Origin: Prorocentrum cordatum
Taxonomy: Eukaryota; Sar; Dinophyceae; Prorocentrales; Prorocentraceae
Assembly (NCBI GenBank): GCA_963575745.1
Contig: CAUYUJ010003059.1
Coordinates: forward strand, 1-64,000
Direction of reading: 5' to 3'
DNA length: 64,000 nucleotides
Position 1 is the stretch's first letter, and every line of letters begins with the position of its first letter. The translations under genes and the position numbers were made by a program. Shown here in pieces: positions 4,441-20,814 of the stretch. The notes under the pieces were generated by a model. The model was given only the letters and a program-made list of their open reading frames with translations. It was not told where the DNA came from and did not search any database.

Positions 4441-5460
4441 CCTCAGGTGACTCGAAGAGGCGCCAATCAGCTTCCACGACACAAGAGAAAAGGATGAGAA
4501 GCCTTGAAGGAAGGCCACAGCCTTCCAAGCACCCACAAGAAATCGTCAAATCCCACCAGCCCTCTGCGCGTAGCTGGTTTAACGAACTCTTGTCTTCTCT
4601 CTTCCAAAATCCCTCCTTCCCCTGCTCGGGGGAGAAGGTTACCCCTCCATACCCCCTCCACTGGGCCCAGGAGGGGGAGGGGCGGAGAGTTAGAGCGTCC
4701 AAGATGGCCCAAGCTGTCTCCAAGAGGGTCTCCGGGAGCCCACGATGGGATGAGATGGTTGGATGATGGTGGTATATGGCCTCCAAGCTGAAAAGAAGAT
4801 GGATCAAGATACCTCACAGATGGCTCAAAGAACAGATATGCCTCAATCAAAAGAAGCAAGAAAAGAAAGAAAAAGAATGAGAAAGACAGAACTTAAAAGA
4901 CTAAGAGAAAAAGAATAAAAAAGAACAAAAAAGAAAGAAAAGGAAGAAAAGAAAGAAAAAAGGAAGAGACGGTCCCAAGACGGTTTCAAGTGCCTTCCGA
5001 GCCCTCCAAGGACCCCCCCAAGAGGTCAAAATGGCTCCCAAACTGAAGGAACATCCATGTGTTGTACCTTCTAGCCTTTCTGCTTCTGATGAGCTCTTGG
5101 GGCCTTACAACGGCCCCAAGACGGACCAAGAGAGCCCCAGGAGGAGCCAAAAAAGGCCCCAAGAGGGCCCCGAGAGCACCCAAGAGCCCCAAGGGCGCCC
5201 CAAGACGGTCCCAAGACACAATTGTTCAACCTCCGATGGGGGGGGACTGAATTTAGAGCCCCCCCCTCTTTTTGAACAGTGTGCCCAAAATTACCTCCAA
5301 AAAAAGCCTCCCAGACCCTCCAAAAGAGCTCCAACAGGGCCCCATGAACCCCTAAACGAGCCCCAACAGGGTCCCAAGAGTGCCCCAAATGGCTCCGCGA
5401 GGACCCCAAGAGAGACACAAGATGGCTCCAAAAGACCCCCGAAAAAAAAAAACGAATAAC
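4440..5460. repeat. CCAAGATGGC-type spacer, copy 1, with purine-rich insertion
   Basis: Degenerate CCAAGATGGC and CCCAAGACGG repeats with GC-rich polypyrimidine patches. Between about 4745 and 4975 copy 1 has roughly 172 extra bases, mostly A and G (runs such as AGAAAAGAAAG). This replaces a 75-base stretch that is regular in copies 2 and 3. Plus-strand open frames here (Pro/Arg/Gln-rich) are repeat translations. Confidence 0.8.
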
Positions 5461-5465
5461 AAATA

Positions 5466-5500
5466 TTATATATCTATATATATATATATATATATATAAC
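5466..5500. repeat. (TA)n microsatellite, copy 1
   Basis: TATATC followed by a TA run. The same length occurs in copy 2 (32943-32984), but it is about 20 bases shorter in copy 3 (60180-60200), giving a clear length difference between units. Confidence 0.85.
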
Positions 5501-5586
5501 AAAAAAAACCCAGGCGGCTGTTACACTGCATGCTTCTACACTTCCCTGGTCAAGGCACCTCGCCTGGCGATATGTTTCTAGATGGG

Positions 5587-5605
5587 CTGGTGGGGATATT
5601 TTTTG
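5587..5605 (-). promoter_or_regulatory. GTATCCCCACCAG-type element, hairpin subfamily, copy 1
   Basis: The plus strand shows CTGGTGGGGATATTTTTTG. On the minus strand this reads as an A-run, then TATCCCCACCAG, which looks like a pyrimidine-rich splice acceptor. Upstream on the minus strand it shares CTGTTCGCCGC and a GCGCT..TTCGC..GCGGC block with the element at 16738. No good ATG follows closely. Confidence 0.5.
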
Positions 5606-5835
5606 TATAGGGGGGGTCGCGGCCGCAAGCGAAGAGCGCAGGCGGCGAACAGGGTGTCCGGGCCGACGGGCAAGCCTAATTAGCTACTGGGCGCGACACA
5701 GGCCGGCCGGGCCAGCTCACAAGGCGGCACCTGCGCAGCAGGGCGGGGGCTGGCTGGCTGAACTGGAACGCCCAGGGAAGCTCGAGCAACGTGCAGCCCT
5801 AACAAAATGCCAGGGAATTCTGTGTTACGCGCTGG

Positions 5836-5855
5836 CTGGTGGGGATACTTTTTGG
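5836..5855 (-). promoter_or_regulatory. GTATCCCCACCAG-type element, CTGGACTTT subfamily, copy 1
   Basis: The minus strand reads GCCGCCGACCAAAAAGTATC then CCCACCAG. Further upstream (about 5896-5908) is CTGGACTTTGCC, shared with the element at 13924. No ATG occurs on the minus strand before the next element at 5587. Confidence 0.5.
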
Positions 5856-5899
5856 TCGGCGGCCGCGCGACAACGGTCTGGCGGCGAGAGGCAAAGTCC

Positions 5900-7020
5900 A
5901 GGGCGTGCGGCACGATGCAAAAACACCGCCGCCACGTCGGCAAGCCGGTTCGCACCTGCACAACAAGCGCAGTTGCACACGCACAATACAAAACGAAACG
6001 AATTCCAAGCGAACGCACATAGGCGCCGCAGTGTAAACCGAGGTGGACAAGCGGCAGAGTGTGCGAATCAGAAACAAAACCGAGGGTTGTACAAGCGTAG
6101 CAGGCTGAACCACACGGCGCCCAGACCTCAGCAATCCGCACCCCAGTGCCAGGTGGAGCCATGCGGCTGTGTCCAAGACGCAACTGCGATGCCGATCCCT
6201 GAAGCGAAGAGATCCGCAGGCGTGGAGCACCGCCGTCTACTGGTGAAGCGCCTGCGCAGCCTGCCAGGGGGGGTCCTGCTGCAGTGGAGGCAAGTGGGAG
6301 GCCGGTGGAGTGAGTCGCCTGCGGGGCGCCAGACTCCGAACGCCCGCGACGACGTCTGCAAGCCAAGCAGTTGTCGCGGATGAGGCGGCGCACTGGCCGG
6401 CAGCTGGTGGGAGCCTGGGTGCTGTCCTGCCGCGGAAGGCTGAACCACTCCGTGGCGACCCAACACCCGAGTGACCACTCCACAGGGCAAGGGGGAGACA
6501 AGCGACTGTGGGCCACGCAGCGCGTGCCGGCACGGCGCCAGGCCTCAGAGAGGGGGGGGGGGCCCGCAGGCGGGGACGCACCGCCTGCGGAGGAGTGAGG
6601 GGGGGGGGGGGGGGGTGAGGGGGGGGCGGCACTGGTGGTAGTGCTGCCTCCTGCGGCGTCAAAGGTCGAGGCGCCTGGGGGAGCTGCACGGTGGAGGACA
6701 CGTGGGCCAGGAGGCAAGCCACGCCCAGTCCGCCGATTGTCACTGTCCCCAAAACCCGAGACCCTACACACACACACCACGAGGTCCTCCAGGGCCGAAG
6801 CACACTCCGCAGAGAGGGAGAGCCAGACCACGAAGCGCGGAACACGGGCGGCCCTGGGAGGGGGGGCAACCACCCCGACGTCTGATAGCACGTCTGGCAG
6901 GCCCCGAGGCCGAGGGCGGGGGACACCCGCCAGGCCCGACAGGGGAGAGGCGAGGAAAAGCACCGCCGCACCCCTCGGCCAGGCCCCGAATCCGAGGTCT
7001 AAGGGGCCATGGTCATATCC
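5900..7020. other. GC-rich stretch with weak minus-strand ORFs, copy 1
   Basis: No gene is recognised. Overlapping minus-strand frames are open (for example 5680-7065 in copy 1), but the 461-residue frame exists only because copy 1 has about 19 extra bases in a G-run near 6600. In copies 2 and 3 it splits into frames of about 278 residues (33165-34001, 60380-61216) and a second frame. The 278-residue frame also runs straight through the GTATCCCCACCAG element. It is rich in Pro, Ala, Arg and Ser without domain motifs. Confidence 0.5.
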
Positions 7021-7562
7021 TGGGACATTCTCGGGGGTCGGATCGCAGCTACTATCCGCAAGCACCTGCGTGGAAGAAAGGAGGGTCGCAGCTGACTGCC
7101 GCTAGGATACATGTTACATCGATGGGCGCAGCTACTCGCAGCTGAGGTCTCTGTTGAATGTGCACTTCTCGCCGAGATCACCTGCGCTGAGAGAGGGGGG
7201 TGCAGCTAACCGCCGCAAAGCACCATTTACATTGTGTGAGCCAGCAGCAAGATGCGCCTTTGGGGGGGCAGCTGACCGCCGCCTGGAACCATTAACATCG
7301 TGGGGGGTCGCAGTAACTTGCCGCTGAGAGTGGTGGGGAAGCTGATCGCCGCTATGATGAGAGCCCCATCTATGCTACATCGACCTTTCGTTGACACGGG
7401 GGGCGCAGCTAACCGCCGCAGAACACGATTTGATGGAAAGTGTGTCTGCGAGAGCCCCATCTATGATTGGATAGTGCCTCCGCCTCTGCTCTCTCAGCGC
7501 CGCAATTGATGGCAGTGAGCGCACTTGCCGCTGAGAGCGGTGGGGAAGCTGATCGCCGCTAC
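7020..7562. repeat. Cluster of GCAGCTAxCCGCCGC motifs, copy 1
   Basis: A degenerate core (GGGG..GCAGCTA.CCGCCGC..) recurs roughly every 50-70 bases, for example near 7037, 7086, 7129, 7203, 7269, 7309, 7330 and 7408. The same core continues inside the 1.15-kb units that follow. No gene is recognised. Confidence 0.7.
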
Positions 7563-10500
7563 GATGTCCCTTTTATTTCCTCGGGGGTCGCAGCTACTCG
7601 CCGCTGGGATCCTGGGGGTCGCAGCTACTCACCGCGAGCACCTGCGTGGAAGGACGGGGGGAGCAGCTGCCAGCCGCTAGGAAGCACTGTACAACCCAGC
7701 GCTGCCACTGACGACGCGGGCACCAACTTAGCATCCCACATCCCAGCGATGCGCCGGAGCCTGTGGATCACGATTGCAAGGATGGTGCCTCCGCCACCGC
7801 TGAACCGACAGCACAGGAATGCAAGGGTACCTGAGCCCCAGGGCGGACCCGAGCCCAGCAGCAGACACCCCAGGGAGGACAGCGCCAGGATGCGAAAGCC
7901 CCGGGGGGAACCCGCGGGACGCGGGGCACGCACCCAGACCCAACTGCAGACACAGAACACGTTGGCCACCTGCCGCCATGCTAGGCAGGGAGGAAATGCA
8001 GCCAGTGTACACCCTTTACGCACGTGCTCTCGGCGCAGCAACTGGTGACAGTGGGCGCTACGAAGACGAAGCGTGCACGGGGGGGTGGCGAAGGGCGGCC
8101 CTTGGCTGCCAGGGCAGGGATGCGAGAGTGCCTTGAGCCCCCGTGGAAAGCCCCGAGCCCGTGGTCCAGGCAGGCCCTTGCGTGCGTCCAGGGTGGCTGA
8201 GCCCGGTGGCGGTCCTTTTCGCTGACTCCGTCGAACGGGAACAGTACTTGCAGCCATTGACAACCTGACGGTCTGAGGCCCCTTTCGTTGGCTGCCGCCA
8301 TGCTGGGCGGGGAGGAGCTGCAGCCAGTGCACACCCTTCACGCATCTGTTCTCAGTGCAGCAACCGGAGACAGTGGGCGCTGCGAAGACGAAGCGTGCAC
8401 GGGTGGGGGGCGAAGGACGGCCCTTGGCAGCCAGAGCAGGGATGCGAGAGTGCCTTGTGCCCCCGTGAGAGGCCCCGAGCCCGTGGTCCAGGCATCCCTG
8501 GCGTGCGTCCAGGGCCGCGGAGCCTGGTGGCGGTCTCCTTCGTTGACACGGGGGGCGCAGCTAACCGCCGCATAACACGATTCGATGGAAAGTGTGTCTG
8601 CGAGGGCCCCAGCTATGAATGGATAGTGCCTCCGCCTCTGCTCTCAGCACTCTATAGATGACAGTGAGCGCATTTGCCGCTCAGAACGGTGGGGAAGCTG
8701 ATCACCGCTATGATGTCCCTTTTATCTCCTCGGGGGTTGCAACTACTCGTCGCTGAGATTCTGGGGGTCGCAGCTAGTCGCCACGAGCACCTGCGTGGAA
8801 GGACGGGGGGAGCAGGTGCCCGCCGCTAGGAAACATTTTACAACCCAGCGCTGCCACTGACGACGCGGGCACTAACTTAGCACCCCACATCCCAGCGATG
8901 CGCCGGAGCCTGTGGATCACGATTCACGGATGGTGCCTCCGCCACCGCTGAACCGACAGCACAGGGACGCAAGAGTACCTGAGCCCCAGGGCGGACCCGA
9001 GCCCAGCAGCAGACACCCCAGGGAGGACAGCGCCAGGATGCGAAAGCCCCGGGGGGAACCCGCGGGACGCGGGGCACGCACCCAGACCCAACTGCAGACA
9101 CAGAACACGTTGGCCACCTGCCGCCATGCTGGGCGGGGAGGAGCAGCAGCCAGCGCACACCCTTCACGCACCTGCTCTCGGCGCAGCAACTGGTGACAGT
9201 GGGCGTTGCGAAGACGAAGCGCGCACGGGGGGGTGGCGAAGGGCGGCCCTTGGCTGCCAGGGCAGGGATGCGAGAGTGCCTTGAGCCCCCGTGAAAGGCC
9301 CCGAGCCCGTGGTCCAGGCAGGCCCCTGCGTGGGTCCAGGGTGGCTGAGCCCGGTGGCGGTCCCTTTCGCTAACTCCGTCGAGCGGGAACAGTACTTGTA
9401 GCCATTGACAACCTGACGGTCTGAGGTCCCTTTCGTTGGCTGCCGCCATGCTGGGCGGGGAGGAGCTGCAGCCAGTGCACACCCTTCACGCACCTGCTCT
9501 CAACGCAGCAACCGGAGACAGTGGGCGCTATGAAGACGAAGCGTGCACGGGTGGGGGGCGAAGGACGGCCCTTGGCAGCCAGAGCAGGGATGCGAGAGTG
9601 CTTTGCGCCCCCGTGAAAGGCCCCGAGCCCGTGGTCCAGGCAGCCCCGGCGTGCGTCCAGGGCCGCGGAGCCCGGTGGCGGTCTCTTTCGTTGACACGGG
9701 GGGCGCAGCTAACCGCCGCATAACACGATTTGATGGAGAGTGTGTCTGCGAGAGCCCCAGCTATGAATGGATAGTGCCTCCGCCTCTGCTCTCAGCACTC
9801 TATAGATGACAGTGAGCGCATTTGCCGCTCAGAATGGTGGGGAAGCTGATCACCGCTATGATGTCCCTTTTATCTCCTCGGGGGTTGCAACTACTCGTCG
9901 CTGAGATTCTGGGGGTCGCAGCTAGTCGCCACGAGCACCTGCGTGGAAGGACGGGGGGAGCAGGTGCCCGCCGCTAGGAAACATTTTACAACCCAGCGCT
10001 GCCGACTGACCACGCGGAGGCACTAACTTAAAAAGCACCCCAACATCCCCAGCGATGCGCCGGAGCCTGTGGATTCACGATTCACGGAGGTGCCTCCGCC
10101 ACCGCTGAACCGACAGCACAGGGACGCAAGAGTACCTGAGCCCCAGGGCGGACCCGAGCCCAGCAGCAGACACCCCAGGGAGGACAGCGCCAGGATGCGA
10201 AAGCCCCGGAGGGAACCCGCGGGACGCGGGGCACGCACCCAGACCCAACTGCAGACACAGAACACGTTGGCCACCTGCCGCCATGCTAGGCAGGGAGGAG
10301 CAGCAGCCAGTGCACACCCTTCACGCACCTGCTCTCGGCGCAGCAACTGGTGACAGTGGGCGCTGCGAAGACGAAGCGCGCACGGGGGGGTGGCGAAGGA
10401 CGGCCCTTGGCTGCCAGGGCAGGGATGCGAGAGTGCCTTGAGCCCCCGTGAAAGGCCCCGAGCCCGTGGTCCAGGCAGGCCCCTGCGTGGGTCCAGGGTG

Positions 10501-10990
10501 GCTGAGCCCGGTGGCGGTCCCTTTCGCTGACTCCGTCGAACGGGAACAGTACTTGCAGCCATTGACAACCTGACGGTCTGAGGTCCCTTTCGTTGGCTGC
10601 CGCCATGCTGGGCGGGGAGGAGCTGCAGCCAGTGCACACCCTTCACGCACCTGCTCTCAACGCAGCAACCGGAGACAGTGGGCGCTATGAAGACGAAGCG
10701 TGCACGGGTGGGGGGCGAAGGACGGCCCTTGGCAGCCAGAGCAGGGATGCGAGAGTGCTTTGCGCCCCCGTGAAAGGCCCCGAGCCCGTGGTCCAGGCAG
10801 CCCCGGCGTGCGTCCAGGGTCGCGGAGCCCGGTGGCTGCCCCTTTCGTTGACACGGGGGGCGCAGCTAACCGCCGCATAACACGATTTGATGGAGAGTGT
10901 GTCTGCGAGAGCCCCATCTATGAAACATCGACCTTTCGTTGACACGGGGGGGTTAACACGATTGCATGAAAAGTGTGTCTGCGAGAGCCC
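7563..10990. repeat. Nested 1.15-kb tandem repeat array (three units), copy 1
   Basis: Units start at GATGTCCCTTTTAT at 7563, 8712 and 9860 (periods 1149 and 1148); the third degrades after about 10920. Each unit contains two related halves starting at CTGCCGCCATGCT (7974/8297, 9122/9443, 10278/10600), about 320 bases apart. Short indels in copy 1 lie between 9990 and 10090. Many frames are open on both strands, but they are periodic with the repeat, so I do not call genes. Minus-strand translations share words such as ALSHPCPGSQGP from unit to unit. Confidence 0.9.
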
Positions 10991-13806
10991 CATCTATGGT
11001 TGGATAGTGCCTCCGCCTCTGCTCCCAGCGCTGCAATTGATGACAGCGAGCGCCGCGAAGACGAAACGCGCACGGGGGGGGGCGAAGGATGGCCCGTGGC
11101 TGCCAGAACTGGGATGCGAGAGTGCCTTGAGCCCCGGTGGGGGGCCCCGGCCCGTGGCACAGGCAGGCCCCCGCGCGCGCCCAGGGCCGCCGTGTCCGGT
11201 CGCGGCCAAGACGAAGCGCGCACGGGGGGGAGGCGAAGAAAAGCCCTTGGCAGCCAGAACGGGGATGCGAGGGCGCCTTGACCCCCCGAGGGAGGCCCTG
11301 GGCCCGAGGTACAGCAGCCCCCGCGTGCGCCCAGGGCCGCAGGGTCCGGATGCATCCCTATCGCAGGCCGCGTTTTGCTGGGCAGCAACGGGCCTGCTGC
11401 CAGTGACCATCCTCCTCGCACCTGGTCCCCGCGCGTGCGATGCCACGATTTGGGGCGGCAACGGAAACTGCGGGGAGACGGCCGGCCATTGTTTTTTGCC
11501 CTTCCTGGGTGCCCGGTGGCCCTTTGCCGCGCGGCGACCCCTGCTCGCTCCGCCGCTTCGACCCGGGCGCAGATGCCACGGCCGAGTCCAGTCGACGTCG
11601 AGGCCCAGCGCGTCGCTGACGACCCGTACGTCGCACTTGTGGCTGCGGAAGGATTCCAGGAGGAGGCGGCAGGTTTGCGGGTCGCGCCGAAGCGGGTCGC
11701 GCCGAAGCGGGTCGAGCGCGCCTTTGCTGCCAGGCACGGACTGCCGCTTGGCGAAAGCATGCCAGGTGCCTGTGAACATTGTTGCCAGTGTGACTTGGAG
11801 CCGCCCCATGGCCTCGCCGGGTGTCTCCCCGGGCAGGTCCCACTGGATGTTGTTGATTTCTGTTTTGCACAGCTGCTGCCCCGCGTCGGGGTCCGCGGGC
11901 TCTGGCCATTGGCGCGGGTCAAGCCATTGGTGCTGCCGTGTATCCTGGCCGCAAGTCTCCAGCGCACCCGCCTCGCTGTCCTGGCCGGAGCTCGCGATCT
12001 GCTCGCGACAGTTCCAGCTGCACGCCTGGCGGGGTTCCGCGGGGAGAGGCGGGCCGCGCGGTTGGCCGCCGGGCTGTGCCAGGCGCGCGCGCGTGCCAGA
12101 GCACAAGATTCTCTGTCAGTCGTGCCCTGGACGTCTGGAGAGAGCGCCCGGGGTTCGCCGCCCGTTAGAGCGGGTTCACTGGCAGGGGAAGGGGGGCGAA
12201 TAGGCGCGAAGGGGTTTCTCCCGACGAGCCAATGGATGGTTTCGCTGTCCTGCGTCTGGACGGTTGGTCCATGGCCCCCCTGATGGGTCTGCGGCGCCCC
12301 CAGAGGCCTGCTGACGGTCTGTTTGTTTTGAAGGGGAGGGGGGGGGGGGGGCACGGCATGGCAAGCGAGCCCCTGTTGTTCCGGGATCTCGCTTAGCTGA
12401 CTGTCGCGGCTGCCGTCGGCACTTTCGGGGGCCACCCCCTGCCCACCCGGCTCTAATCCAGAAACACGGACGAAGGCTCGTGCCACTTCCGCACCTTCAG
12501 AGGCTTCCGCCGCTTCGGGCCCCCGATACTCCGCGGCCTCCGCAGCCTCCGCCGACTCCGCCGCGGCCCCCCTCTCCTTTTCTCTGCGCCGCTGCTGCTG
12601 CTGAGGGAGCATGGGTACCTCTGAGTCTTCTCGCGGGTTCTGCTGGCTCCCAGAGGTGCCTAGGAGGCTGTCAGGGAGCAGGGGCCCCGCCTTCTGGTCG
12701 TCAGAGAGGGTACTTTGAGGCTCGCGGGTCTCTCGTCCCCGGGGAGGGTCTGCTGCTGCTGGGGCTGCTGTTGCTGCTGCTGCAGCACCTGTCGCTGGTG
12801 GTGCGGCTGTGTTTGTGGGTGATGCGGCGGTTGCTGTGGCTGCTGAGGGGGGTGTTGTTGCTGCTGCAGCTGCGGGGTGCTGTTGCTGCAGCACCTGTAG
12901 CTGCTGCGCTGCGGCTGTGGTCGGGGGTGCTGCCGCTGTCGCAGCCGCTGCTGCGGTTGCCGCTGCTGCTGCTGGAGCTGCCGGGGTATGTTGCTGATGC
13001 TGCTGCTGCGGCTGTTGCTGCTGCTGCTGCTGCCCTGCTGCTGCGGCTGCTGCTGTTGCTGCTGTCGCGGCTGCAGTTGCAGCAGCTGCGGCTGCTGCTG
13101 CAGGTACTGCTGCTGCGGCTGCTGCTGCCGCCGCTGCTGCTGCGGCTGTTGTTGCTGCTGCTGTCGCTGCTGCCGCTGCTGCTGCTCCTGCAGGTACAGC
13201 TGCAGCGGCGGCGGCCGCGGCGCCCGCGGCGGCGGGCCCAAGGGCGGCCGCGCGGGACGGCGGCCGCGGCGCCGGCTGCGCGACCCGCGGCCGCCGCGTG
13301 CGGCCGGCCGTCCGCCACGGCGGCGGCGGGCGGGCGGCGGCGGCAGCCGCAGCGCCGGCGGCCGCAGGGGCGGCGCGGCGGCGCCGGCCGCCGACCCGCG
13401 CGCCGCCCAGCGCGCGCGGCGCCGCGTCGCCCGCGGCGCCCCGGCCAGCGCCGGCGGCGGCGGCACCAGCGTCGCGCCCAGCGCCCACGGCGCCATCGGC
13501 GCTGGCGGCACCGCGCCGCCGTCTGCGTCGTGCCGAAGCAGTCTCCAGGGACTGCGCCTGAGGTGCGCGGACTGCGCCGCGGCCCGCCCGCGTCGGCGGC
13601 CGGCCGGCGGCCTCCGGAGGCGGCCAGCCTGCGGCGGCCTGCCAGGCGGCCCTCGGCCGCGGCGTCGCCCCGCCGAGGGAAGCTGCAGCCTCCGCCCACT
13701 GGTCAGAGGGGGGCGCCCTCGGCCCCATTGCTCTCCTGCCTGCTGCCAGCGGCCGGAAGAGCCTGCGGCAGCGCGGCCGTTCCAGCCCCCACGAATGCAG
13801 AGCCAT
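10918..13806 (-). CDS. Ala/Gln-rich hypothetical protein with relict-spliced-leader 5' end, copy 1
   Basis: The ATG at 13806 is the first on the minus strand after the relict spliced leaders (13859-13921), so I take it as the start; the frame is open upstream to a GTG at 13842. From it, 962 codons stay open. Order: an N-terminal Arg/Ala/Pro region; a GC-extreme Arg/Ala stretch (13200-13520); long Ala runs with a short Gln run (CAG/GCA tract, 12745-13200); then a mixed, acidic, ordinary-looking part (about 12180-12740) with Glu/Ala-rich and Pro-run segments. Beyond about 12100 the better coding signal moves to another frame (see 10994-12106), implying an intron or frameshift. No known domain. 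Possibly an intrinsically disordered nuclear or RNA-associated protein; this is only inference from composition. Confidence 0.55.
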   Translation of the reverse strand: MALHSWGLERPRCRRLFRPLAAGRRAMGPRAPPSDQWAEAAASLGGATPRPRAAWQAAAGWPPPEAAGRPPTRAGRGAVRAPQAQSLETASARRRRRRGAASADGAVGAGRDAGAAAAGAGRGAAGDAAPRALGGARVGGRRRRAAPAAAGAAAAAAARPPPPWRTAGRTRRPRVAQPAPRPPSRAAALGPAAAGAAAAAAAAVPAGAAAAAAATAAATTAAAAAAAAAAAAAVPAAAAAAAATAAATAATAAAAAAGQQQQQQQPQQQHQQHTPAAPAAAAATAAAAATAAAPPTTAAAQQLQVLQQQHPAAAAATTPPSAATATAASPTNTAAPPATGAAAAATAAPAAADPPRGRETREPQSTLSDDQKAGPLLPDSLLGTSGSQQNPREDSEVPMLPQQQQRRREKERGAAAESAEAAEAAEYRGPEAAEASEGAEVARAFVRVSGLEPGGQGVAPESADGSRDSQLSEIPEQQGLACHAVPPPPPPLQNKQTVSRPLGAPQTHQGGHGPTVQTQDSETIHWLVGRNPFAPIRPPSPASEPALTGGEPRALSPDVQGTTDRESCALARARAWHSPAANRAARLSPRNPARRAAGTVASRSRAPARTARRVRWRLAARIHGSTNGLTRANGQSPRTPTRGSSCAKQKSTTSSGTCPGRHPARPWGGSKSHWQQCSQAPGMLSPSGSPCLAAKARSTRFGATRFGATRKPAASSWNPSAATSATYGSSATRWASTSTGLGRGICARVEAAERAGVAARQRATGHPGRAKNNGRPSPRSFRCRPKSWHRTRGDQVRGGWSLAAGPLLPSKTRPAIGMHPDPAALGARGGCCTSGPGPPSGGQGALASPFWLPRAFLRLPPVRASSWPRPDTAALGARGGLPVPRAGAPHRGSRHSRIPVLAATGHPSPPPVRVSSSRRSLSSIAALGAEAEALSNHRWGSRRHTFHAIVLTPPCQRKVDVS
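10994..12106 (-). CDS. Probable 3' coding part of the Ala/Gln-rich gene, copy 1
   Basis: A minus-strand frame with ordinary protein composition between about 11580 and 12060. Its middle reads like a folded domain (for example CKTEINNIQWDLPGETPGEA and FRSHKCDVRVVSDALGLDVD). It overlaps the 10918-13806 frame and is probably the genuine continuation after an intron or shift near 12100. A tandem pentapeptide (DPLRR twice) falls at about 11690-11720. Below about 11480 it runs into repeat-derived sequence. No family recognised. Confidence 0.45.
   Translation of the reverse strand: MCSGTRARLAQPGGQPRGPPLPAEPRQACSWNCREQIASSGQDSEAGALETCGQDTRQHQWLDPRQWPEPADPDAGQQLCKTEINNIQWDLPGETPGEAMGRLQVTLATMFTGTWHAFAKRQSVPGSKGALDPLRRDPLRRDPQTCRLLLESFRSHKCDVRVVSDALGLDVDWTRPWHLRPGRSGGASRGRRAAKGHRAPRKGKKQWPAVSPQFPLPPQIVASHARGPGARRMVTGSRPVAAQQNAACDRDASGPCGPGRTRGLLYLGPRASLGGSRRPRIPVLAAKGFSSPPPRARFVLAATGHGGPGRARGPACATGRGPPPGLKALSHPSSGSHGPSFAPPRARFVFAALAVINCSAGSRGGGTIQP
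12745..13200. repeat. CTG/CAG trinucleotide tract, copy 1
   Basis: Imperfect (GCTGCT)n with interruptions on the plus strand. On the minus strand one frame gives Gln runs, another Ala runs and the third Ser runs. It lies inside the coding region of the relict-SL gene, which is why the real frame is hard to choose. Confidence 0.88.
13201..13520. repeat. Extreme-GC segment (GGC/GCC-rich), copy 1
   Basis: About 320 bases with almost no A or T, made of GGCGGC and GCCGCC words and many potential hairpins. The central 200 bases differ in arrangement from copy 2 although both flanks are identical. Confidence 0.8.
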
Positions 13807-13858
13807 CGCGGCCGAGAAGTAGCAGCTCCGGCAGGCGCGCACCTGAAAGGGGGGCGTG

Positions 13859-13921
13859 CTCGAGCCGAGATGGCTTGAGCCAAGGGGGCTTGAGCCAGGC
13901 TTGAGCCAGAGGGGCTACGGA
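13859..13921 (-). other. Four contiguous relict trans-spliced leaders, copy 1
   Basis: Read on the minus strand: a full 22-nt leader relic (13900-13921; begins TCCGTAGCC, ends TGGCTCAAG, 3 mismatches to the dinoflagellate leader), then CCTGGCTCAAG (13889-13899), CCCCCTTGGCTCAAG (13874-13888) and CCATCTCGGCTCGAG (13859-13873). They abut with no gap. Fifteen nucleotides is what remains when trans-splicing reuses the internal TAG of an older leader (CCGTAG, then CCATTTTGGCTCAAG). This is the known signature of mRNA recycling by retroposition in dinoflagellates and implies at least four leader additions. Confidence 0.88.
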
Positions 13922-13923
13922 CG

Positions 13924-13952
13924 CTGGTGGGGGGCACTTTTTTTGTTCGGCG
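13924..13952 (-). promoter_or_regulatory. GTATCCCCACCAG-type element at the relict-SL gene, copy 1
   Basis: The minus strand reads GCCGCCGAACAAAAAAAGTG then CCCCCCACCAG, directly followed (after CG) by the relict spliced leaders at 13859-13921. CTGGACTTTTCC lies upstream at about 13961-13972. The position fits a trans-splice acceptor for the gene whose ATG is at 13806, 118 nt downstream. Confidence 0.6.
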
Positions 13953-13979
13953 GCCCGCAAGGAAAAGTCCAGAGGGCGC

Positions 13980-14480
13980 GTCAATCACAGGCAATGGGGC
14001 GCAATGCCAGATAATTAGCGAGGGCCAGGCCACGCAAGAAGGAAGCCGCCAAGAGGGCGCCAACCCACGCACGCGCAACACGTAGAACAGGACGACAGCG
14101 GCACCATGCCAGAATATTAGACCGACCGACCCGACAACAGCCGACCAGACCAGCAGGCGAACACATACCCTGCACGGGACAAATTCTAGAGAGCGGACCG
14201 CCCTGACGACAGCCAGCCGCGCCGGCAGGAAGGCACACAACCAACCCTGCACGAAACAAATACCAGAAGGCCAGGCGGCGAGAGAAGGAAGGCAGCCGAG
14301 AGGGCGCCAACCCACGCACGCGCAGCATGCAAACCGGGACGACTGAGGCGCCCACCCAGAATATTAGTCGGGCTGCCCTAACAACAGCCGAACACACGGA
14401 CACGCAGGCGCACGCCCCACGAGACATGGCCAGGAAGCAATGCGCGCCAAGGAAGAAGGCCGCGATGCAAGCCGGCCTCT
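13980..14480. repeat. 247-bp imperfect duplication upstream of the relict-SL gene, copy 1
   Basis: GAGGGCGCC followed by AACCCACGCACGCGC occurs at 14053 and 14300, each followed about 60 bases later by CAGAATATTAG. Minus-strand frames across it are hydrophobic (LIFW, VLRVRGLAPS words repeated in two frames) but not convincing genes. Confidence 0.75.
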
Positions 14481-14598
14481 AAAAGGCGGCGAAAAAGGGG
14501 GCGGCACGAGCGTGGCGCAGCGGGGGGGCCAACGGCCAGCCGCCACAGAACACCAAAGTGAGAGCCCAGGCAGACGATGCGGGACCAGGCGATTGTGA

Positions 14599-16660
14599 CC
14601 AAGGCCGAAGTGAGCCGTGGGATGGGTCATTTCAGCCAGGCCTACGGGCTAAGCCCACGACAGTGGGGGCCTCAGGAGTGAAACTGAGCACCTGGCTCCC
14701 AGGTGGGCCAAGGGCGAAGAAAGGGGGAGGCGGCAGAAGAACGAAGGAGGGGTAGAAAAGCAGGTGGCCTCACTCACTGAGCACCATGTGCTCGCTGGCG
14801 AGTCGACAGGGCCCAATCACGGGCGGACACCACATCACCGTGCCCGAGTCAGACAGGTCTGCCACGCCGGGGGGCAACGTCGGCCAGGAGAAGCGCGAAC
14901 CTGGCACAATATGCACCACATGAACTGGAAGTCGCACTCCAGAGCGACGGCGCCGAAGAGCGGAACGGCCAAGACGAGGAGGGCCAGGCCTGCAAGACGC
15001 CACTGGCCGAAAGCCCACGCCATCCAAGCGAGCACAGCATCATCCCGCAATGCGAGAGGGAAGCACCTCATCCCCAGGAGGTGTCCCAAGGTATTGGCCA
15101 GAGCCACGCTGCGGGCGTCGTCACCCCTCAGAAGTCGCTGGCGGCGTCAGGAGGGGAGGAGAGGAGGCGCGGCCGATAGCCGCAGAACATTTGAATAAAT
15201 GGAGAGGAGGCGTCGGATGCAAACGCCCCCAGACGAGGACCCAACACGCGAAGTGGGCAAGTCGCGGCGCGCGGCGCCGTCGAGGGGGGGGAGAATCCAC
15301 GCGGGCAAGGCCGTCGGACTTCAGGAGCGCGGAGCGCATGGGGGGGGCCCTTGGCCCGCCGCCCCGGCCATTCAAAGAGAGCGCCCCAGCGGGCGACGCG
15401 GGCCCATGACAGCGACGCCAAAGAGAGCCGTGGGCAGGGTCATTGCAGCCAGACCGCACGGGCTCAGAGCCCAAGGAATACCGTGGGGGGTCAAAAGCAG
15501 TGCGAGCGTGCACCTCGCCCCCAGGAGGTAGCATGCGCATTAAGGCCGGGGCCTGTCACTGCGGTGAAACGAGCCCCCTTCATGAAGGGACATCCCACTG
15601 CCGTTGCGGCCCGCGGGGGGCCATCTGTCCCCGGCGTCATCCCCTCACCCGAGGCTTGCCTGTGGGCGGCCAAGGGACTTACTATGACCATGGTGGCCCC
15701 TTCCTATGTGGAGCAGGTCTGTGAACGTCACACGTGGTCGGTCCGACACCATAGTCGACGAGGGCGTCAGGAGGGAGGGGAGGGAGGCGCAGCCGATAGC
15801 CGCAGAGCATTTGAATAAAAGGGGGGAGATGAGCCAGAGGCTCGCACCGTTATTGAGGACCCAACACGCGCGGTGGGCATGTCGTCGGCGCGTGGCGCCG
15901 CCTGGCGGGTGAGAGCCAACAGCGCGGGGCAGTCGGACGTCGAGGGTGCGGAGCGCATGCGGGGGGGGGCCTGAGGCCTGCCGCCCAGCCGTCCGAAGTG
16001 CGCGCTCTGTCGGGCGAATCGGGCTCATGTCCTCGTGGACAAGGCCAGAGTGAGCCGCGGGCAGGATTATTGCAGCCACACCACACGAGCTAAGGGCCCA
16101 AGAGGACCTGCGGGAGTCTATACGCTATGTGAGTTGTGCACCTCACTCCCAGGAGGTGACACGGGCATGAAGGTTGCTGCCTGTCACTGCGGTGAAACGG
16201 GCCCCCCCTTGGTCACGGGACAGCTCTTAGGCGATGTGGCCCGAGGGGGTCTTCCGCCCGCGCCATCTCGCCCTCCCCGGATGCGTGTCTGTGCGCCGCA
16301 AAGGGGCGCTCGAGGACCATGGGGCTGCCGACCCATTCGGCCCCGCATGGCACGTCGGGGGCCCATGTGGCCCACAGAGTCAGCGCGATGGATGCCACTC
16401 TGTATAGTTGGGTGGCCGCTGCACCCAGCTGACCGAGGTCGCTCTCTTCAAGAAAGCACGCTTTGCGCCCCGAGACAGGCTGAGTGGCAACACGGAGTAT
16501 CGACATGAACGGGGGGAAGGTGAGCAATGCCGCGGCCTGGGGTTCCGTGGGTGTGGAACGAGGCTCGAGCCGTAGACGTGCACTGACAATCGCCCGACGG
16601 GGAGCCAAGGGAGCGGGACAGCGACCGGGAGCGTGACCCTTGGCCGCGTGGCCCTCGATG
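14599..16660. repeat. Three degenerate repeats of about 620-800 bp, copy 1
   Basis: A block with core GAGCCGYGGG..GGRTYATTKCAGCCA recurs at about 14608, 15426 and 16051. In the last two it is followed by AGGAGGT and CTGTCACTGCGGTGAAACG. A second shared block, GCCGATAGCCGCAGARCATT, is at about 15172 and 15793. Minus-strand peptides from two units are alike (AAHRHASGEG, AAHRQASGEG). This could be duplicated exon-intron modules of one gene. Confidence 0.7.
14835..15107 (-). CDS. Membrane-like coding fragment, copy 1
   Basis: A 90-residue minus-strand frame with a strongly hydrophobic stretch (core WRLAGLALLVLAVPLFGAVA) that could be one or two transmembrane segments, followed by Cys-containing residues. 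It is probably an internal exon and not a whole gene; the upstream candidate start is at 16711. No family recognised. Confidence 0.3.
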   Translation of the reverse strand: MALANTLGHLLGMRCFPLALRDDAVLAWMAWAFGQWRLAGLALLVLAVPLFGAVALECDFQFMWCILCQVRASPGRRCPPAWQTCLTRAR

Positions 16661-16711
16661 ACGGGGCGAGCCTTTCCTGGGCCTGGAGCCGAGACCTCGC
16701 GTCTTGGCCAT
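16448..16711 (-). CDS. Candidate 5' exon, Arg/Ser-rich hypothetical protein, copy 1
   Basis: The ATG at 16711 is 27 nt downstream of the GTATCCCCACCAG element at 16738. It opens an 87-residue frame rich in Arg, Ser and Gly (GSRSRSLSRSLGS at about residues 30-42). After about residue 48 a different frame (16213-16608) reads more like ordinary protein, so an intron or frame change is likely. The gene probably continues toward 14800. Function unknown. Confidence 0.35.
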   Translation of the reverse strand: MAKTRGLGSRPRKGSPRHRGPRGQGSRSRSLSRSLGSPSGDCQCTSTARASFHTHGTPGRGIAHLPPVHVDTPCCHSACLGAQSVLS

Positions 16712-16737
16712 ACCCGACGGCGTCACTTGCGGTCGAA

Positions 16738-16788
16738 CTGGTGGGGATACTTCTTTTTTTTACAGCCGCAGGCGGAAGCGCCTGCGGC
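16738..16788 (-). promoter_or_regulatory. GTATCCCCACCAG-type element with perfect hairpin, copy 1
   Basis: The minus strand carries a perfect 10-bp inverted repeat with a 4-base loop (16765-16788; arms GCCGCAGGCG and CGCCTGCGGC), then an A-rich run, then GTATCCCCACCAG. An ATG lies 27 nt downstream at 16711. Confidence 0.6.
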
Positions 16789-16864
16789 GAACAGTCACGG
16801 TCGGGCTGCGGCCGCGACTAAATTCCCGAGCGCGCGCGGGGCCGCGGATCAGGCGGCAAGCAGC

Positions 16865-17105
16865 GGCAACCCAGGGCGTCTGAGAGGCCAGAGGTCGTGC
16901 AACCCCAGGGAGTCTGAAAGGTCAGTCACCTGAGACGGTCGCGCAAGCTGCAACCCAGGGAGTCTGAAAGGTCAGCCCTCGGGCGAGCCAGGCGCAGCCA
17001 AAATGGCGCGCAGTACGTCCCAGGCCGCGACCGAGTAGAGACGACCGCGCGGTAGGGAACGGCCCCCGTGCGGGAAAGTCAACCCAGGGAGTCTGACGGG
17101 CATGG
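16865..17105. repeat. CCCAGGGAGTCTGA motif cluster, copy 1
   Basis: Four occurrences of CAACCCAGGGxGTCTGA (first with C, then three with A; about 16867, 16902, 16950, 17081), two followed by AAGGTCAG. On the minus strand two read CTTTCAGACTCCCTGGGTT, so each resembles a splice acceptor. The rest of 16800-17380 shows no recognised gene. Confidence 0.65.
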
Positions 17106-17380
17106 GCAGGCAGTAACTGGTGACGGCGTCCAGCAGGAGAAAGGTTCTGACGGCGCCAGCGAACCGTCGCAGCATCAGAGAAAGCATCCACGCAAGGGGA
17201 AGCCTAAGCCAGAGCAGTCAAAGGAGACCCAACCACTGCTGAGCGATGCGCCTGCGCACAGAGGACCAGCGAACTGGTCAGGACGCAGTAGGGGTACACG
17301 GGTAGCCACAGCGAGAACGCGGGGTCGCTCGGGAGTGACGTACACCGAACAACTATGTGACGTAGCGCCAGGCGACTAAC

Positions 17381-17791
17381 TCAACCATGTGGGGGCGCTC
17401 GGAAGGACAACAACCGTCGTATACCCAAGACAGCAAGTCCCTCACAGTCACAGAGTCCCAGGGAGTTCCGCACACCTGAATGCGCGGGAGAGCAACGAGG
17501 AAGAGCCGGACCGTCATACTCCGAAACCGTGCAGCAGCCAGGGTAGTGACGCGTGGCATCGGTGGGCGGAACTGATCGGGCGAGGCCGTCGGCCCAGTCA
17601 GAGAGGCGGCGGGCCAGGTGAGTCTTCCGCCCTTCGGCGTAGCAAACCGCGACGATGGACCGCCCATCCATCCGTGTCTCGTTACTCCCAGGAGAATGGG
17701 GTAGGACGGCTGAAGGCCGTAGTAACTTTGAAGCCCCGGGGAGAGTGCGCAGTTCTGGGCACGGGGCGGAAACCGCCACGTCGTCGGCCAC
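17381..17791 (-). CDS. Small minus-strand ORF (136 aa), copy 1
   Basis: Lies downstream of the 939-aa gene on the same strand. Mixed composition with a stretch (DGRSIVAVCYAEGRKTHLAR) that looks more protein-like than repeat-like. It may be a downstream exon of the 939-aa gene. A second frame across the same bases (17353-17979) is also open, so confidence is low. Confidence 0.25.
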   Translation of the reverse strand: MADDVAVSAPCPELRTLPGASKLLRPSAVLPHSPGSNETRMDGRSIVAVCYAEGRKTHLARRLSDWADGLARSVPPTDATRHYPGCCTVSEYDGPALPRCSPAHSGVRNSLGLCDCEGLAVLGIRRLLSFRAPPHG

Positions 17792-18250
17792 AGAAGCTGC
17801 GCGCCAGGCAGGCCCGCCAGGGTGAAAACAGCTTCAGTGGGGCACGGGGCCACTATGGCCACACGCAACACGAGGTAGCAGTGTGGACGGTATTGCTGGC
17901 ACACGCACTCGGGTCCAAAGGCAGGAAGTGCGTGTACCAGGAGGGGCGGCGGAATGCTGCAAGCGGGTCCGAAGTCCAAAGCACGGCTGAAGGCCGTCGT
18001 CTGATAGAGAATCCCAGGGTGCAGGTACGCTCAGGAGTGAGCCCCGATCGGCCCCAGGGCAGCTTAGCCGAGCACAGGACCATTCGGGCCACTGGTGAGA
18101 ACCACTACAGCGGGGCCAGGGGCCAGCTAGGGTCTGCAGGCTATGCCCCCCTACGCAGCGAGGCAGATGGTATTGCTGGTCGGCACACTTGGGACCAAAG
18201 GCAGGAAGTGCGCGGACCAGGGAGGGTGGGCAGCCTGGCTGGTCGTCGGG
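17700..18250. repeat. Imperfect 280-bp duplication at the 3' end of the 939-aa gene, copy 1
   Basis: CCAAAGGCAGGAAGTGCG occurs at about 17918 and 18196, preceded in both by a related stretch (GTGAAAAC..CAGTGGGG / GTGAGAAC..CAGCGGGG) and TATTGCTGG. The minus-strand long frame reads through the copy at 18196, so the C-terminal 130 residues of that ORF are repeat-derived. Confidence 0.7.
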
Positions 18251-20653
18251 TCTGCCTCCCCCCCGCTTGCCACCCGTCTGCCAGCGATCGTCGCGCCAGC
18301 CTTCACTCCAGTCGCTCTGCCAGCTACCCCAGGTGCCCCAGGAGCTCGTAGCACGGTCTCGCCAGCTGCTCTGCTGGAGGTTGCCCTTGCCCCTGCCGCC
18401 GGGTCGGGCGTGTCGCAGGTAGTCGGCCCGCAGTTTGTCCCAGTCAATGTGATAGCCGCACCTCGCGCCCATCAGGCAGGCGTTGTACCCGCAGCCCTTC
18501 CAGTCGTCAAGGAACTTGTTGATGGTCGCTTCCGCGTGCTGTCTCGGGTCTGATTTGGGCCCCCTGGATCCAGGGCGCCAAATGCGCTGCGTGTGCGCGG
18601 TCCACAGCGCGCGGAAAACTGCGCCCAACTCCGACTGGTACCTGGCGAGGCGTCTGGCGGGTGTCTCGTCGCTACGCTCCAAATCCACCGTGCCCAGCCA
18701 GACCTTGTACATGGGCCCCCCATGTGAGTCGGTCAACAGGTTGAGCGCATCGCGCTCCGTCGAGCCTGTTGGGCGAGGGTAGGTAGGTCTATATCCAGGG
18801 ACCTGTGGGGTACGCAGTGGGGGGCGCTCGGTCCGCACGTCGCCCCTGTCGCGGGCGCTCTCATCGTCCTCAGATCCCCTGGCAACACTGGTGTTTTGGT
18901 CGGGGTTAGCCGGGCCATCCCCGGCAGCAGTCGGGTCACGTTCGGAGCCGGGTTCAGAACTGTCTGCCGATGGGCTCCGCTGAGGCGCCTTGTCGCCTGG
19001 GCCGTTCTCGTCGACCTCCGTGGCCGAGTCCGAGCAGGATACAGGAGGAGGGGGCTCGCCTTCTCCGTAGTCGGGTGGCTCCACCTTCTCCGTAGGGGGG
19101 ATCACGTCTTCACCGCTCTCGTCCTTGACCGTGTGGTCGGGCGGGTCCGGGAGGCCCAGACGGGAGTCATTGTCTCTCGTGCCCAGGGACTTGTCTGTGT
19201 CGGCCGCCGTAGGGGTGTCCGGCCTGTCCTCACTCATGGTCTGCACGACTGGTGGAGGTGACTCGGCCAAGGAAGTGATGGACGTGGAGGCGAGGGCATC
19301 GGCACTGAGGCTGAGTAGGAAGCTCGTCAGCGCGCCCACTTCGTGTCTGATAGGACTAAGGCCACTTGCCGGGGCCAGGGTCGCGGCGCACCTCACCCAG
19401 GCCTCCCCATGCTTCTCGCCGTCGGTGAGGTGGGCGACGACTCGCGCAGCGGCCACCCGCTTACCCTCCCAGCGCTGGTTGGGCGGGACGCAGTTCTCAG
19501 GGATGCATTGGACGTACACCGTCCTGAGAAAATCAGTCAGACGCCCGTCCGGCCAGGAGGTTTCATCACAACTCTGCTCTGGGATGCTGCTGTTGCGGTT
19601 GGTGAAACAGAACTGTCTCCAGGTGTAGTCCAGCCCAGGGTGGAAGTCACGGAGGTAGGTCACGAGCTGTCGCTGTGCGGACAGTCCTCCACTGCCTGGT
19701 CCGCTCCTGGGGTCGTTTGGGCCCAGCGTGGGGTTGTTGACGTCCCTGTTGTCCAGGAGCGGGCCCTGCGGTACTGGCAGGTCTGGCAGGAGCTCCATGA
19801 GCTGTGCTAGGGACCTGGGAGCTCGCTCAGCCGCGGCGGCCGCACCACCCGCGGCGCTAGACCCAAGGAGGTTGCTCGCTCCGGCCTTGGTGAAGCGATC
19901 CTGGGCCTTGGCGTCCGCGCCTAGCCACGGGAGAGACTCCCATATGTCCACTGATACATCAGCTCCGATCTGGCTGCTGAGCGTCGGAAGGACAGGGGCC
20001 TCGGCTGGGTATAGCGCTCTAAAATCCCAATCCAGGATGTGGTCCAGGGTAGCAGGACCGATGTTCCATACCGGGACCAGGCAGCGTCGACAGCACCAGG
20101 TGGCGTTCCACTTGCGTTCCCACCAGGCTATGGCTCGTTTGTCGATGGGAGGCAGCCCTGCCTGCTCAGGCACCCCTATCCCTTCCGCTGGCTTCCATAT
20201 GAAGCAGCCCAGGGGCGGGGCTCCTGCTTTCCAGACGAGGAGCGGAGCCCCCGGGGGGCATGTGTCGCACCGAGCGGAGTAGCTCTGGCTCTGGGCAGCT
20301 TTGAGGCCGAACCGTTCGTCTCGGATCCGTAGGATGGGAATGGTGGTGATGGCACGCTCAGGGATCTTCATGCCCATCGGCGTCATGATGAGGTCCGATA
20401 GCGTTCTGGTGTCCGCCTGGGGGCTGCATCCGTAGCCGAGTGGGAGGTGACCCGGGGAGGGGAGAGCATCCGCCTTGTCGTTGCTAGCGGAACCCATCCT
20501 CTGCTGCTCGTGTTCCTTGACCTTGTCGGCAATCGTCGCCCCTGTCGGAGCTGGAATGCCCTGATCCTCCAGGTGTCGAATCCAGCAGGTCTCGCAGTGC
20601 CATCCCATGTTAGCGCCGTTGAGGTAGGCCTGGGGCCTATTCTGAGCGACCAT
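17834..20653 (-). CDS. Large hypothetical protein with Cys-pair motifs and disordered linker (939 aa), copy 1
   Basis: I chose the ATG at 20653, the first in-frame ATG, 51 nt after the GTATCCCCACCAG acceptor-like element; the frame is open upstream to a GTG at 20752. Visible parts in 939-aa numbering: Cys pairs CETC (20-23), CDTC (129-132) and WCCRRC (186-191), which could bind zinc; a compact middle region (about 225-455) with aromatic motifs (LRDFHPGLDYTWRQF); an acidic, Pro-rich, probably disordered linker (about 465-625); a second folded-looking block (640-750, LARYQSELGAVFRALWTAHT, CGYNACLMGARCGYH); then a Trp/Ser/Gly and RGG-like stretch (760-805). The tail after about 805 reads into a duplicated repeat and may be an intron or UTR. 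No family recognised; nucleic-acid binding is a guess from Cys pairs and the RGG-like tail. Confidence 0.65.
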   Translation of the reverse strand: MVAQNRPQAYLNGANMGWHCETCWIRHLEDQGIPAPTGATIADKVKEHEQQRMGSASNDKADALPSPGHLPLGYGCSPQADTRTLSDLIMTPMGMKIPERAITTIPILRIRDERFGLKAAQSQSYSARCDTCPPGAPLLVWKAGAPPLGCFIWKPAEGIGVPEQAGLPPIDKRAIAWWERKWNATWCCRRCLVPVWNIGPATLDHILDWDFRALYPAEAPVLPTLSSQIGADVSVDIWESLPWLGADAKAQDRFTKAGASNLLGSSAAGGAAAAAERAPRSLAQLMELLPDLPVPQGPLLDNRDVNNPTLGPNDPRSGPGSGGLSAQRQLVTYLRDFHPGLDYTWRQFCFTNRNSSIPEQSCDETSWPDGRLTDFLRTVYVQCIPENCVPPNQRWEGKRVAAARVVAHLTDGEKHGEAWVRCAATLAPASGLSPIRHEVGALTSFLLSLSADALASTSITSLAESPPPVVQTMSEDRPDTPTAADTDKSLGTRDNDSRLGLPDPPDHTVKDESGEDVIPPTEKVEPPDYGEGEPPPPVSCSDSATEVDENGPGDKAPQRSPSADSSEPGSERDPTAAGDGPANPDQNTSVARGSEDDESARDRGDVRTERPPLRTPQVPGYRPTYPRPTGSTERDALNLLTDSHGGPMYKVWLGTVDLERSDETPARRLARYQSELGAVFRALWTAHTQRIWRPGSRGPKSDPRQHAEATINKFLDDWKGCGYNACLMGARCGYHIDWDKLRADYLRHARPGGRGKGNLQQSSWRDRATSSWGTWGSWQSDWSEGWRDDRWQTGGKRGGGRPDDQPGCPPSLVRALPAFGPKCADQQYHLPRCVGGHSLQTLAGPWPRCSGSHQWPEWSCARLSCPGADRGSLLSVPAPWDSLSDDGLQPCFGLRTRLQHSAAPPGTRTSCLWTRVRVPAIPSTLLPRVACGHSGPVPH

Positions 20654-20703
20654 CTGGCGCGTGTCGTCGGAGATCCACGTGCCATCGGGGGAGCGTAGCT
20701 GAA

Positions 20704-20716
20704 CTGGTGGGGATAC
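20704..20716 (-). promoter_or_regulatory. GTATCCCCACCAG element upstream of the 939-aa gene, copy 1
   Basis: The minus strand reads GCGTATCCCCACCAG with no A-run. The first in-frame ATG of the long ORF is 51 nt downstream at 20653. About 60-70 nt upstream is CCTTTTTAAACC, which could be a dinoflagellate TTTT-type promoter box (inference). Confidence 0.6.
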
Positions 20717-20814
20717 GCGATGCGTCGAGAATTCCACAAACGGCGCTTGCACTTTAGGAATCTTACTTGGTTTAAAAAGGAATTGGGCCTGTGTGTCGGT
20801 CAGGCCGGCTTGCT

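Follow-up and report, generated by a model that had tools for sequence, protein, structure and literature searches.

The stack of four leader units at 13859-13921 (minus strand) of the 64,000-nt stretch of Prorocentrum cordatum DNA analysed here (the window, G000:C3059:1-64000) is probably the 5' end of an insert, R3, that belongs to a site-specific class of leader-tagged retroelements. Inserts with A-rich ends lie directly after the 13-nt sequence GTATCCCCACCAG (target T), a second copy of the site stands behind them, and they form head-to-tail rows. As read from the sequence layouts, T is the insertion site and is duplicated by insertion. A preliminary description of this DNA had presented the stack as the mark of a repeatedly retroposed gene; instead, R3 is one member of a head-to-tail row of four inserts, and the fixed 13-nt target that they occupy lies within a different repeat. 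All genome-wide counts refer to the 4,128,499,153-base P. cordatum assembly.

The gapless minus-strand arrangement of 22, 11, 15 and 15 nt that had been claimed for the stack was confirmed by unit-by-unit reading. The outermost unit 1 (22 nt, TCCGTAGCCCCTCTGGCTCAAG, 13900-13921) is followed by unit 2 (11 nt, CCTGGCTCAAG, 13889-13899), unit 3 (15 nt, CCCCCTTGGCTCAAG, 13874-13888) and the innermost unit 4 (15 nt, CCATCTCGGCTCGAG, 13859-13873), such that two of the three inner units have 15 nt and one has 11 nt. Against the dinoflagellate leader used as reference, DCCGUAGCCAUUUUGGCUCAAG (as given in the available part of PMC6050394), unit 1 matches at 19/22 positions (3 mismatches), unit 2 matches at 11/11 with one 4-nt gap where 4 nt are missing, and units 3 and 4 have 3 mismatches in 15 nt each. 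The nine mismatches comprise six T to C, in line with the prediction that most would be of this kind, two A to C and one A to G. Only the outermost unit keeps CCGTAG. The unit cores (CCTCT, T, CCCTT and ATCTC) are all different, which argues against simple local duplication, and none of them is the canonical ATTTT. Directly after the innermost unit stands CACGCC, which is neither a GT nor a GC donor. A search for GGCTCRAGCCNNNNNGGCTCRAG with up to 2 mismatches gave 8 matches in the window (both strands; two stack copies) vs. 0.02 expected, and 0/100 shuffles reached 8; the stack is beyond chance.

On the minus strand, the window carries four inserts head to tail between five target copies, and the left end M of the host repeat, the five T copies, the segment X and the right end H are all in one orientation. 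The row opens with M (AATTCTCGACGCATCGC, 20717..20733) and target copy T1 (GTATCCCCACCAG, 20704..20716), followed by insert R1 (3,953 nt, 16751..20703), which has no 5' leader and ends in a 3' stem-loop and an A-rich tail. Behind target copy T2 (GTATCCCCACCAG, 16738..16750) lies insert R2 (2,800 nt, 13938..16737), with no leader and an A7 end; its A-run (13938-13944) precedes target copy T3 (GTGCCCCCCACCAG, 13924..13937), which has 14 nt and is not identical to the 13-nt target. Two extra nucleotides, CG (13922..13923), separate T3 from leader nucleotide 1 at the head of R3 (8,075 nt, 5849..13923), the only one of the four inserts with leaders, which ends in ..GCCGCCGACCAAAAA. Next come target copy T4 (GTATCCCCACCAG, 5836..5848), insert R4 (236 nt, 5600..5835; no leader, 3' stem-loop and A-run), target copy T5 (ATATCCCCACCAG, one mismatch, 5587..5599) and the remainder of the host repeat, from X (CCCATCTAGAAACATATCGCCAGGCGAGG..) to H (..GCAGAGGGCTGGTGGGATT), at 4549..5586. 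With one mismatch allowed, the target matches 9 times in the window (T3 copies excluded) vs. 0.07 expected. An A-run at the 3' end is found on 4/4 inserts. A 3' stem-loop was tried as a further constant feature and was dropped after a shuffle test, in which the folds of R1 (z -5.5; 0/200 shuffles as good) and R4 (z -2.3; 1/200) exceeded the shuffles and those of R2 (z -1.5; 23/200) and R3 (z +0.4; 127/200) did not. Inside R3, a block of about 1.15 kb is also repeated in tandem to give three copies that are 93-96% alike (7385-10924, minus strand).

The target is pyrimidine-rich, ends in CAG and lies at the left end of an abundant transposon-like repeat with the order M-T-X-H. Genome-wide, 5,342 copies were counted of the 23-mer GACGCTTCGCGTATCCCCACCAG, in which T replaces an A of the M end (control 0), and target sites elsewhere in the genome were found empty, filled once and filled twice. 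Among the first 30 M loci listed, 25 are empty and run from T into X (CCC(A/G)TCCAGAAACGA.., up to 3 mismatches), and the right end H (a hairpin, ..GGGCTGGTGGGA) falls inside the locus in 22. The other five of these 30 include L086 and L099, which are filled and have a second T, and L092, which is filled with an insert whose 3' end lies beyond the locus. The X and H of the window resemble those in loci of L071-L100, and further copies of the host repeat occur in a tandem array with units of about 550 bp at C370, where about nine head-to-tail M-T-X-H copies were observed with each right end fused to the next left end (L101, G000:C370:349000-358900).

The filled sites show how the target is arranged around the inserts. 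L099 reads M-T, an insert ending in A9, T, a second insert ending in A12, T, and then X to H; L086 reads M-T, an insert ending in AAAAAAC, T and X; L112 reads M-T, an insert of about 290 nt with A8, a T lacking its G, and a leader stack; and in L113, the leader-tagged insert (about 7.1 kb) stands behind one T and ahead of a second, 2-mismatch T that leads into X. For L114 and L115, the approximately 8.9 kb fetched downstream of the leader contained no second T. The sequence AAAAAAGTATCCCCACCAG occurs 1,623 times genome-wide (control 1); among the 35 occurrences listed up to C392, 8 have a listed exact M 62-813 nt upstream on their own strand, and 0 have one within 5 kb downstream. Combined, the layouts of L099, L086, L112 and L113 and the placement of AAAAAAGTATCCCCACCAG show that T is duplicated on insertion. 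Two other roles for the left end were considered and rejected. M-T was tried as the promoter of a leader RNA gene, but it ends a repeat with 5,342 copies and, in 25 of the first 30 listed, runs on into X. The M motif was also tried as the terminal inverted repeat of a gene-carrying DNA transposon; inverted M partners (up to 5 mismatches) were present in 3/30 loci of about 3 kb (L080 and L081, which form one pair, and L094), and target duplication explains the data better. Helentrons were compared because of the hairpin at the end of the host repeat, which was placed in no superfamily.

Leaders directly abut the target throughout the genome. The pattern CCCCACCAGN{0,4}CCGTAGCC, i.e. a leader abutting the target, matched 551 times vs. 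20 for the control. At the 49 junctions read among the matches listed (0-4 nt allowed), 0 to 3 extra nucleotides stand before the leader's first base, and some junctions lack that base or have C in its place; CG followed by the leader's first T, as in the window, is the commonest junction (10 of the 49). Exact copies of the canonical 21-nt leader number 14,218 (control 0), and only 15 of them have the exact target upstream. A GT after the canonical leader had been tried as a way to identify leader RNA genes; it was dropped, as its 973/14,218 occurrences are near the 1-in-16 chance level.

The upstream context of stacks was read in a sample of 68, taken from 72 distinct places behind 78 GGCTCAAGCCTGGCTCAAGCC matches. 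Since an 11-nt-unit pattern was used to choose them, unit counts from this sample over-represent 11 nt as the length of the second unit; four of the loci (L004, L005, L006 and L012) are copies of the window unit. The leader is directly preceded by shared sequence in 42/68: in 24 this is ..GACGCTTCGC-GTATCCCCACCAG or close to it (type A), in 15, of which 4 are window-unit copies, an A-run leads into shared sequence of the GACGCTTCGC/GTATCCCCACCAG type (type B), and 3 were assigned to neither type. Type B, judged by its order of parts, represents an insert behind another insert. The remainder comprises 16 stacks without the target, about half of which adjoin a simple repeat (by eye), and 10 that were not parsed. 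The 16/68 stacks without the target, together with the 15/14,218 canonical copies that have it, suggest that the target is one route among several. A Blast comparison of stack flanks among the loci was dominated by GC-rich low-complexity matches and gave no usable signal. In L058, two full-length leaders stand in a row behind a target copy with one A between them, an arrangement that would fit the CAG of the target, and not the inner TAG, as the point of re-splicing.

Relict spliced-leader (DinoRL) retrogenes in dinoflagellates were reportedly first described by Slamovits and Keeling in 2008, and leader stacks and leader recycling as such are already known in these organisms and are not new here. 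In the published recycling model, as presented in the available part of PMC3229502, relics are cut after nucleotide 7 and stacked, with a fourth truncated repeat in one Alexandrium EST. Less biased samples than the 68 stacks are provided by L103-L112, which were picked by the target and stand outside the 68-stack counts, and by a search for close pairs of TGGCTCAAG (TGGCTCAAGN{0,22}TGGCTCAAG), which gave 6,123 matches vs. 449 for the reversed-pattern control. Among the first 100 stacks listed of the 6,123, the unit has 15 nt in 60, is exactly the canonical CCATTTTGGCTCAAG in 42 and has a pure pyrimidine middle in 6. This predominance of 15-nt units is expected if old leaders were re-spliced at their internal TAG, as the preliminary description had proposed; the spliced-leader origin of the units was likewise supported.

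The leaders at the target differ from the canonical leader in their core. Of the 551 targeted leaders, 449 continue to an exact GGCTCAAG within 8 nt (control 0) and thus have both flanks exact, and only 15 of these 449 have the canonical ATTTT, leaving 434 with a non-canonical core. The core letters were read for 49 of 100 targeted leaders listed: 45 are pure C/T of 1-7 nt, two are canonical, the others are ATTT and GCT, and 48/49 end in T. The 11-nt unit corresponds to CC-T-GGCTCAAG, the shortest member of this pyrimidine-core series; it had been taken for a leader remnant, yet it need not have been trimmed further, as it fits a length-variable series CC-Yn-TGGCTCAAG that extends to full-length leaders in the outermost position. 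The window's core variant is present 56 times genome-wide; among the 14 places up to C5345, comparison with the list of target-abutting leaders shows an exact target link for 7, and 2 more have one mismatch (L006, L012). Four of these 14 are copies of the window unit. Decay after insertion was rejected as the source of the odd cores, given that, for uniform decay, survival of the right flank (449/551) predicts about 88% intact cores, whereas 2/49 and 15/449 were seen. Most likely, the pyrimidine core originates or is maintained inside the class, either through errors in copying the leader or through inheritance, since a variant leader RNA serving all genes would not concentrate in this class. 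According to the available part of PMC12014239, a double methylcytosine in the leader is one likely reason for truncated libraries, and difficulties in copying the leader would agree with this. The claim that the stack records at least four cycles of transcription, trans-splicing and re-insertion is plausible as such but unsupported as a count, as it presumes that a canonical leader is added in each round and 434/449 outermost leaders of this class are non-canonical.

The mechanism that we propose for this class starts from RNA-derived inserts, as suggested by the A-runs, the leaders and the missing 5' parts. An endonuclease/reverse transcriptase of the LINE type would nick the target site, and reverse transcription would start at the A-rich tail of the RNA, in some inserts accompanied by a 3' stem-loop, and run up to the capped leader. 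Each new copy would then have T at its 5' edge, and T, being pyrimidine-rich and ending in CAG, is a candidate 3' splice acceptor. The transcript of an insert may gain a leader at the CAG of T or at the leader's own internal TAG, and re-splicing at the latter would leave 15-nt remnants, such that a stack builds up. Transcription, trans-splicing at T, retrotransposition and the enzyme itself are putative steps that we infer from the arrangement of these parts. One difficulty lies in the cores: a newly added leader should be canonical, and 434/449 are not. The lack of leaders on R1, R2 and R4, the deviating sequence of T3 and the 3' folds of R2 and R3, which do not exceed those of shuffles, also weigh against the proposal. 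A tentative extension, to which we give less than even weight, is that the element class has made the spliced leader part of its life cycle, with a trans-splice-acceptor site that ensures capping, a leader that has diverged and a stack that records generations. Under this extension, a free pyrimidine tract would replace the ATTTT core while the splice-relevant flanks stay fixed, either as a result of the reverse transcriptase stuttering at a modified stretch of the leader RNA or of the element carrying its own leader.

Four other explanations were weighed against the reading of the stack as the head of a site-specific insert. If the element itself encoded leader-like 5' repeats, as a mimic or as 5'-UTR monomers subject to slippage in the pyrimidine tract, the stack would count repeats and not splicing rounds. 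The non-canonical core between exact flanks in 434/449 targeted leaders would follow directly from this, as would the frequent target linkage of the window core variant (7/14 exact, 2/14 with one mismatch) compared with 15/14,218 canonical copies. We nevertheless regard it as somewhat unlikely, given that 15 targeted copies do have a canonical leader, that CCGTAG is missing from the inner units exactly where re-splicing would cut, and that the four window cores differ from each other. An ordinary dinoflagellate retrogene, in which a host mRNA was retroposed at least four times and its leader re-spliced at TAG in each round, is an unlikely account of the whole structure and can be partly true alongside the site-specific reading. 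It draws on the 15-nt units (60 among the first 100 stacks listed), the 14,218 exact canonical 21-nt leader copies in the genome and the one Alexandrium EST with a fourth truncated repeat (available part of PMC3229502), but a fixed, duplicated target with several families downstream indicates a class of elements rather than a single gene, the ATG frame discussed below is broken between near-identical copies, and the outermost leader is not canonical.

The two remaining explanations would each produce the stack in a simpler way. A single trans-splicing event from a tandem-leader RNA gene, as proposed for Fugacium, where such genes were found (available part of PMC6616646), could deliver a whole stack at once; it is highly improbable here, as units differ within one stack, stacks differ between siblings of one family and the CACGCC after the innermost window unit lacks a GT or GC donor. 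That a single relic was duplicated locally in tandem, by slippage, is just as hard to credit for the window, where adjacent units differ, as they do in L106, L108 and L112, and 15 nt is the commonest unit in the unselected stack listing. Slippage would, in turn, explain the identical adjacent 11-nt units of L019, L024, L031, L037, L064 and L067, as well as those loci in which the outer leader has the one-T core of the next unit (e.g., L013, L021, L027, L033), with the reservation that all of these belong to the sample selected for an 11-nt second unit.

A coding gene in R3 is unproven on the frames examined. As the preliminary description had stated, an ATG follows the stack, starting at the 53rd nucleotide after it (13804..13806, minus strand). 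The frame that it opens reads MALHSWGLERPRC.. in copies 1 and 2 of the tandem unit described below and MALHSWDWNGRAA.. in copy 3 and on contig C4065, a shift caused by one missing base, the 17th counted from the A of ATG. The frame opened by this ATG is thus not kept between near-identical copies. Among the ten window ORFs that were scanned (a subset; four overlap R3 and run in its direction), none had a Pfam match above the cut-off and no endonuclease/reverse transcriptase was found. Siblings with a similar inner unit and different outer stacks were found. The region after the outer units is common to 15 loci (picked by eye; two are window-unit copies), with CCGTCTCGGCTCGAG exact in 5 and with one difference in 7 more, and an ATG at a similar distance in 13; a common inner region with varying outer units suggests the 5' region of a multi-copy family.

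Other inserts do carry longer reading frames. Most of a 993-aa ORF (17837-20815, minus strand) lies within R1; its relatives are two P. cordatum proteins, which cover 18% (at 71% identity) and 15% (at 78% identity) of the ORF and one of which is ion transport domain-containing according to UniRef, and a structure search for this ORF returned no solved structure below E 0.2. L114 and L115 are leader-tagged, target-linked inserts of one family, other than that of the window: L115 holds an ORF of 1,302 aa with a RING finger (PF13639), and L114 holds a 362-aa ORF with a RING finger and a 1,441-aa ORF without a significant match. The P. cordatum protein P0004 has 39 residues (87%) in common with the L115 ORF and 146 residues (78%) in common with the 993-aa ORF of R1. 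In the insert at T in L092, one piece matches the endonuclease-reverse transcriptase entry PF14529 below the Pfam cut-off (E 0.0014). This piece carries GGDAN, SQID and SDH and, further on, PGVDGVPYEAF, which we take to be LINE endonuclease and reverse-transcriptase signatures. Its one PDB match (E 1.1) has an unrelated name, and a protein search gave one relative, from a Pyramimonas data set, with no function name. No complete reverse-transcriptase ORF was found at the target, the L092 insert being cut by the end of the locus.

Links between retrotransposons and spliced leaders are known from SLACS/CRE, which target leader genes and for which the leader exon is the target. The site-specific NeSL retrotransposons, as covered in the available part of PMC4640811, are likewise linked to spliced leaders and use the leader exon as their target, whereas in the present class the insert carries the leader and the target lies in the repeat M-T-X-H. 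The same portion of that source lists transposons as one kind of sequence hit by target-specific APE-type non-LTR retrotransposons (Tx1 and R1 clades), which resemble the present class in the use of one sequence inside a multicopy repeat, a short target duplication and an A-rich 3' end; the truncated copy with an endonuclease-like match at T adds to this likeness. Unlike them, as far as that text describes them, the inserts here carry host-type spliced leaders and their target ends in a splice-acceptor-like CAG. The inserts need not themselves be the LINE, and the window insert possibly uses, rather than is, such a machine. With the DinoRL retrogenes, as described in the available parts of PMC3229502, PMC6050394 and PMC12014239, the class shares a leader at the 5' end of a retro-copy, inner units of the 15 nt left by a cut after nucleotide 7 (in the window stack two of three, the third having 11 nt) and multi-unit stacks; it differs from them in its fixed, duplicated target, in the pyrimidine core in place of ATTTT and in that a coding gene is unproven. 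The tandem-leader and SL-like genes of Fugacium kawagutii (available part of PMC6616646) also have several leader units in tandem in genomic DNA, whereas the window stack lacks a donor after its innermost unit and has units of unequal lengths and cores.

A literature search covering titles and the starts of abstracts, with few subscription journals, returned no site-specific retroelement tied to dinoflagellate leader relics; in the literature searched, no description was found of the fixed, duplicated, apparently acceptor-like target, the rows of inserts or the seemingly class-specific core. In the available part of PMC12014239, genomic re-entry of leader-tagged RNAs is described as 'likely mediated by retrotransposons'. 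With a fixed 13-nt landing site that is found both empty and filled, this re-entry acquires a DNA address from which the machine can be sought and insertions dated. The number of leader units should not be equated with the number of retroposition rounds, and a leader tag alone does not show a gene. Additionally, why this class has lost the ATTTT core is a testable puzzle that could concern leader RNA modification, copying fidelity or element-encoded leaders.

A tandem unit of 27.46 kb fills the window about two and a third times. Several minor features of this unit were observed. A 675-aa ORF at 30050-32074 (minus strand), with a Thr/Pro-rich spacer and a VGDPHLQNIHGERFDL stretch, gave only Pfam matches below the cut-off, and its counterpart in unit 1 (3215-4417 and 2385-3050) is broken into shorter ORFs. 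ARAGORN called tRNAs on the minus strand at 25187-25305, 52636-52754 and 40826-40915 (overlapping His/Ser, and Arg), which are repeat-rich and probably false; Rfam returned nothing at the gathering score. Contig C3059 (82,555 nt) consists almost exactly of three 27.5-kb tandem units, with aligned blocks 96.9-99.7% alike, and carries three stacks, the second of which (41317..41379, minus strand) is identical to the first and lies 27,458 nt from it in the next unit; a fourth is on contig C4065. The stack is the same in all four copies (near-identical by another reading of the C4065 copy), which suggests that it is probably older than the tandem duplication, and with a near-identical stack on C4065 the array may be longer than contig C3059.
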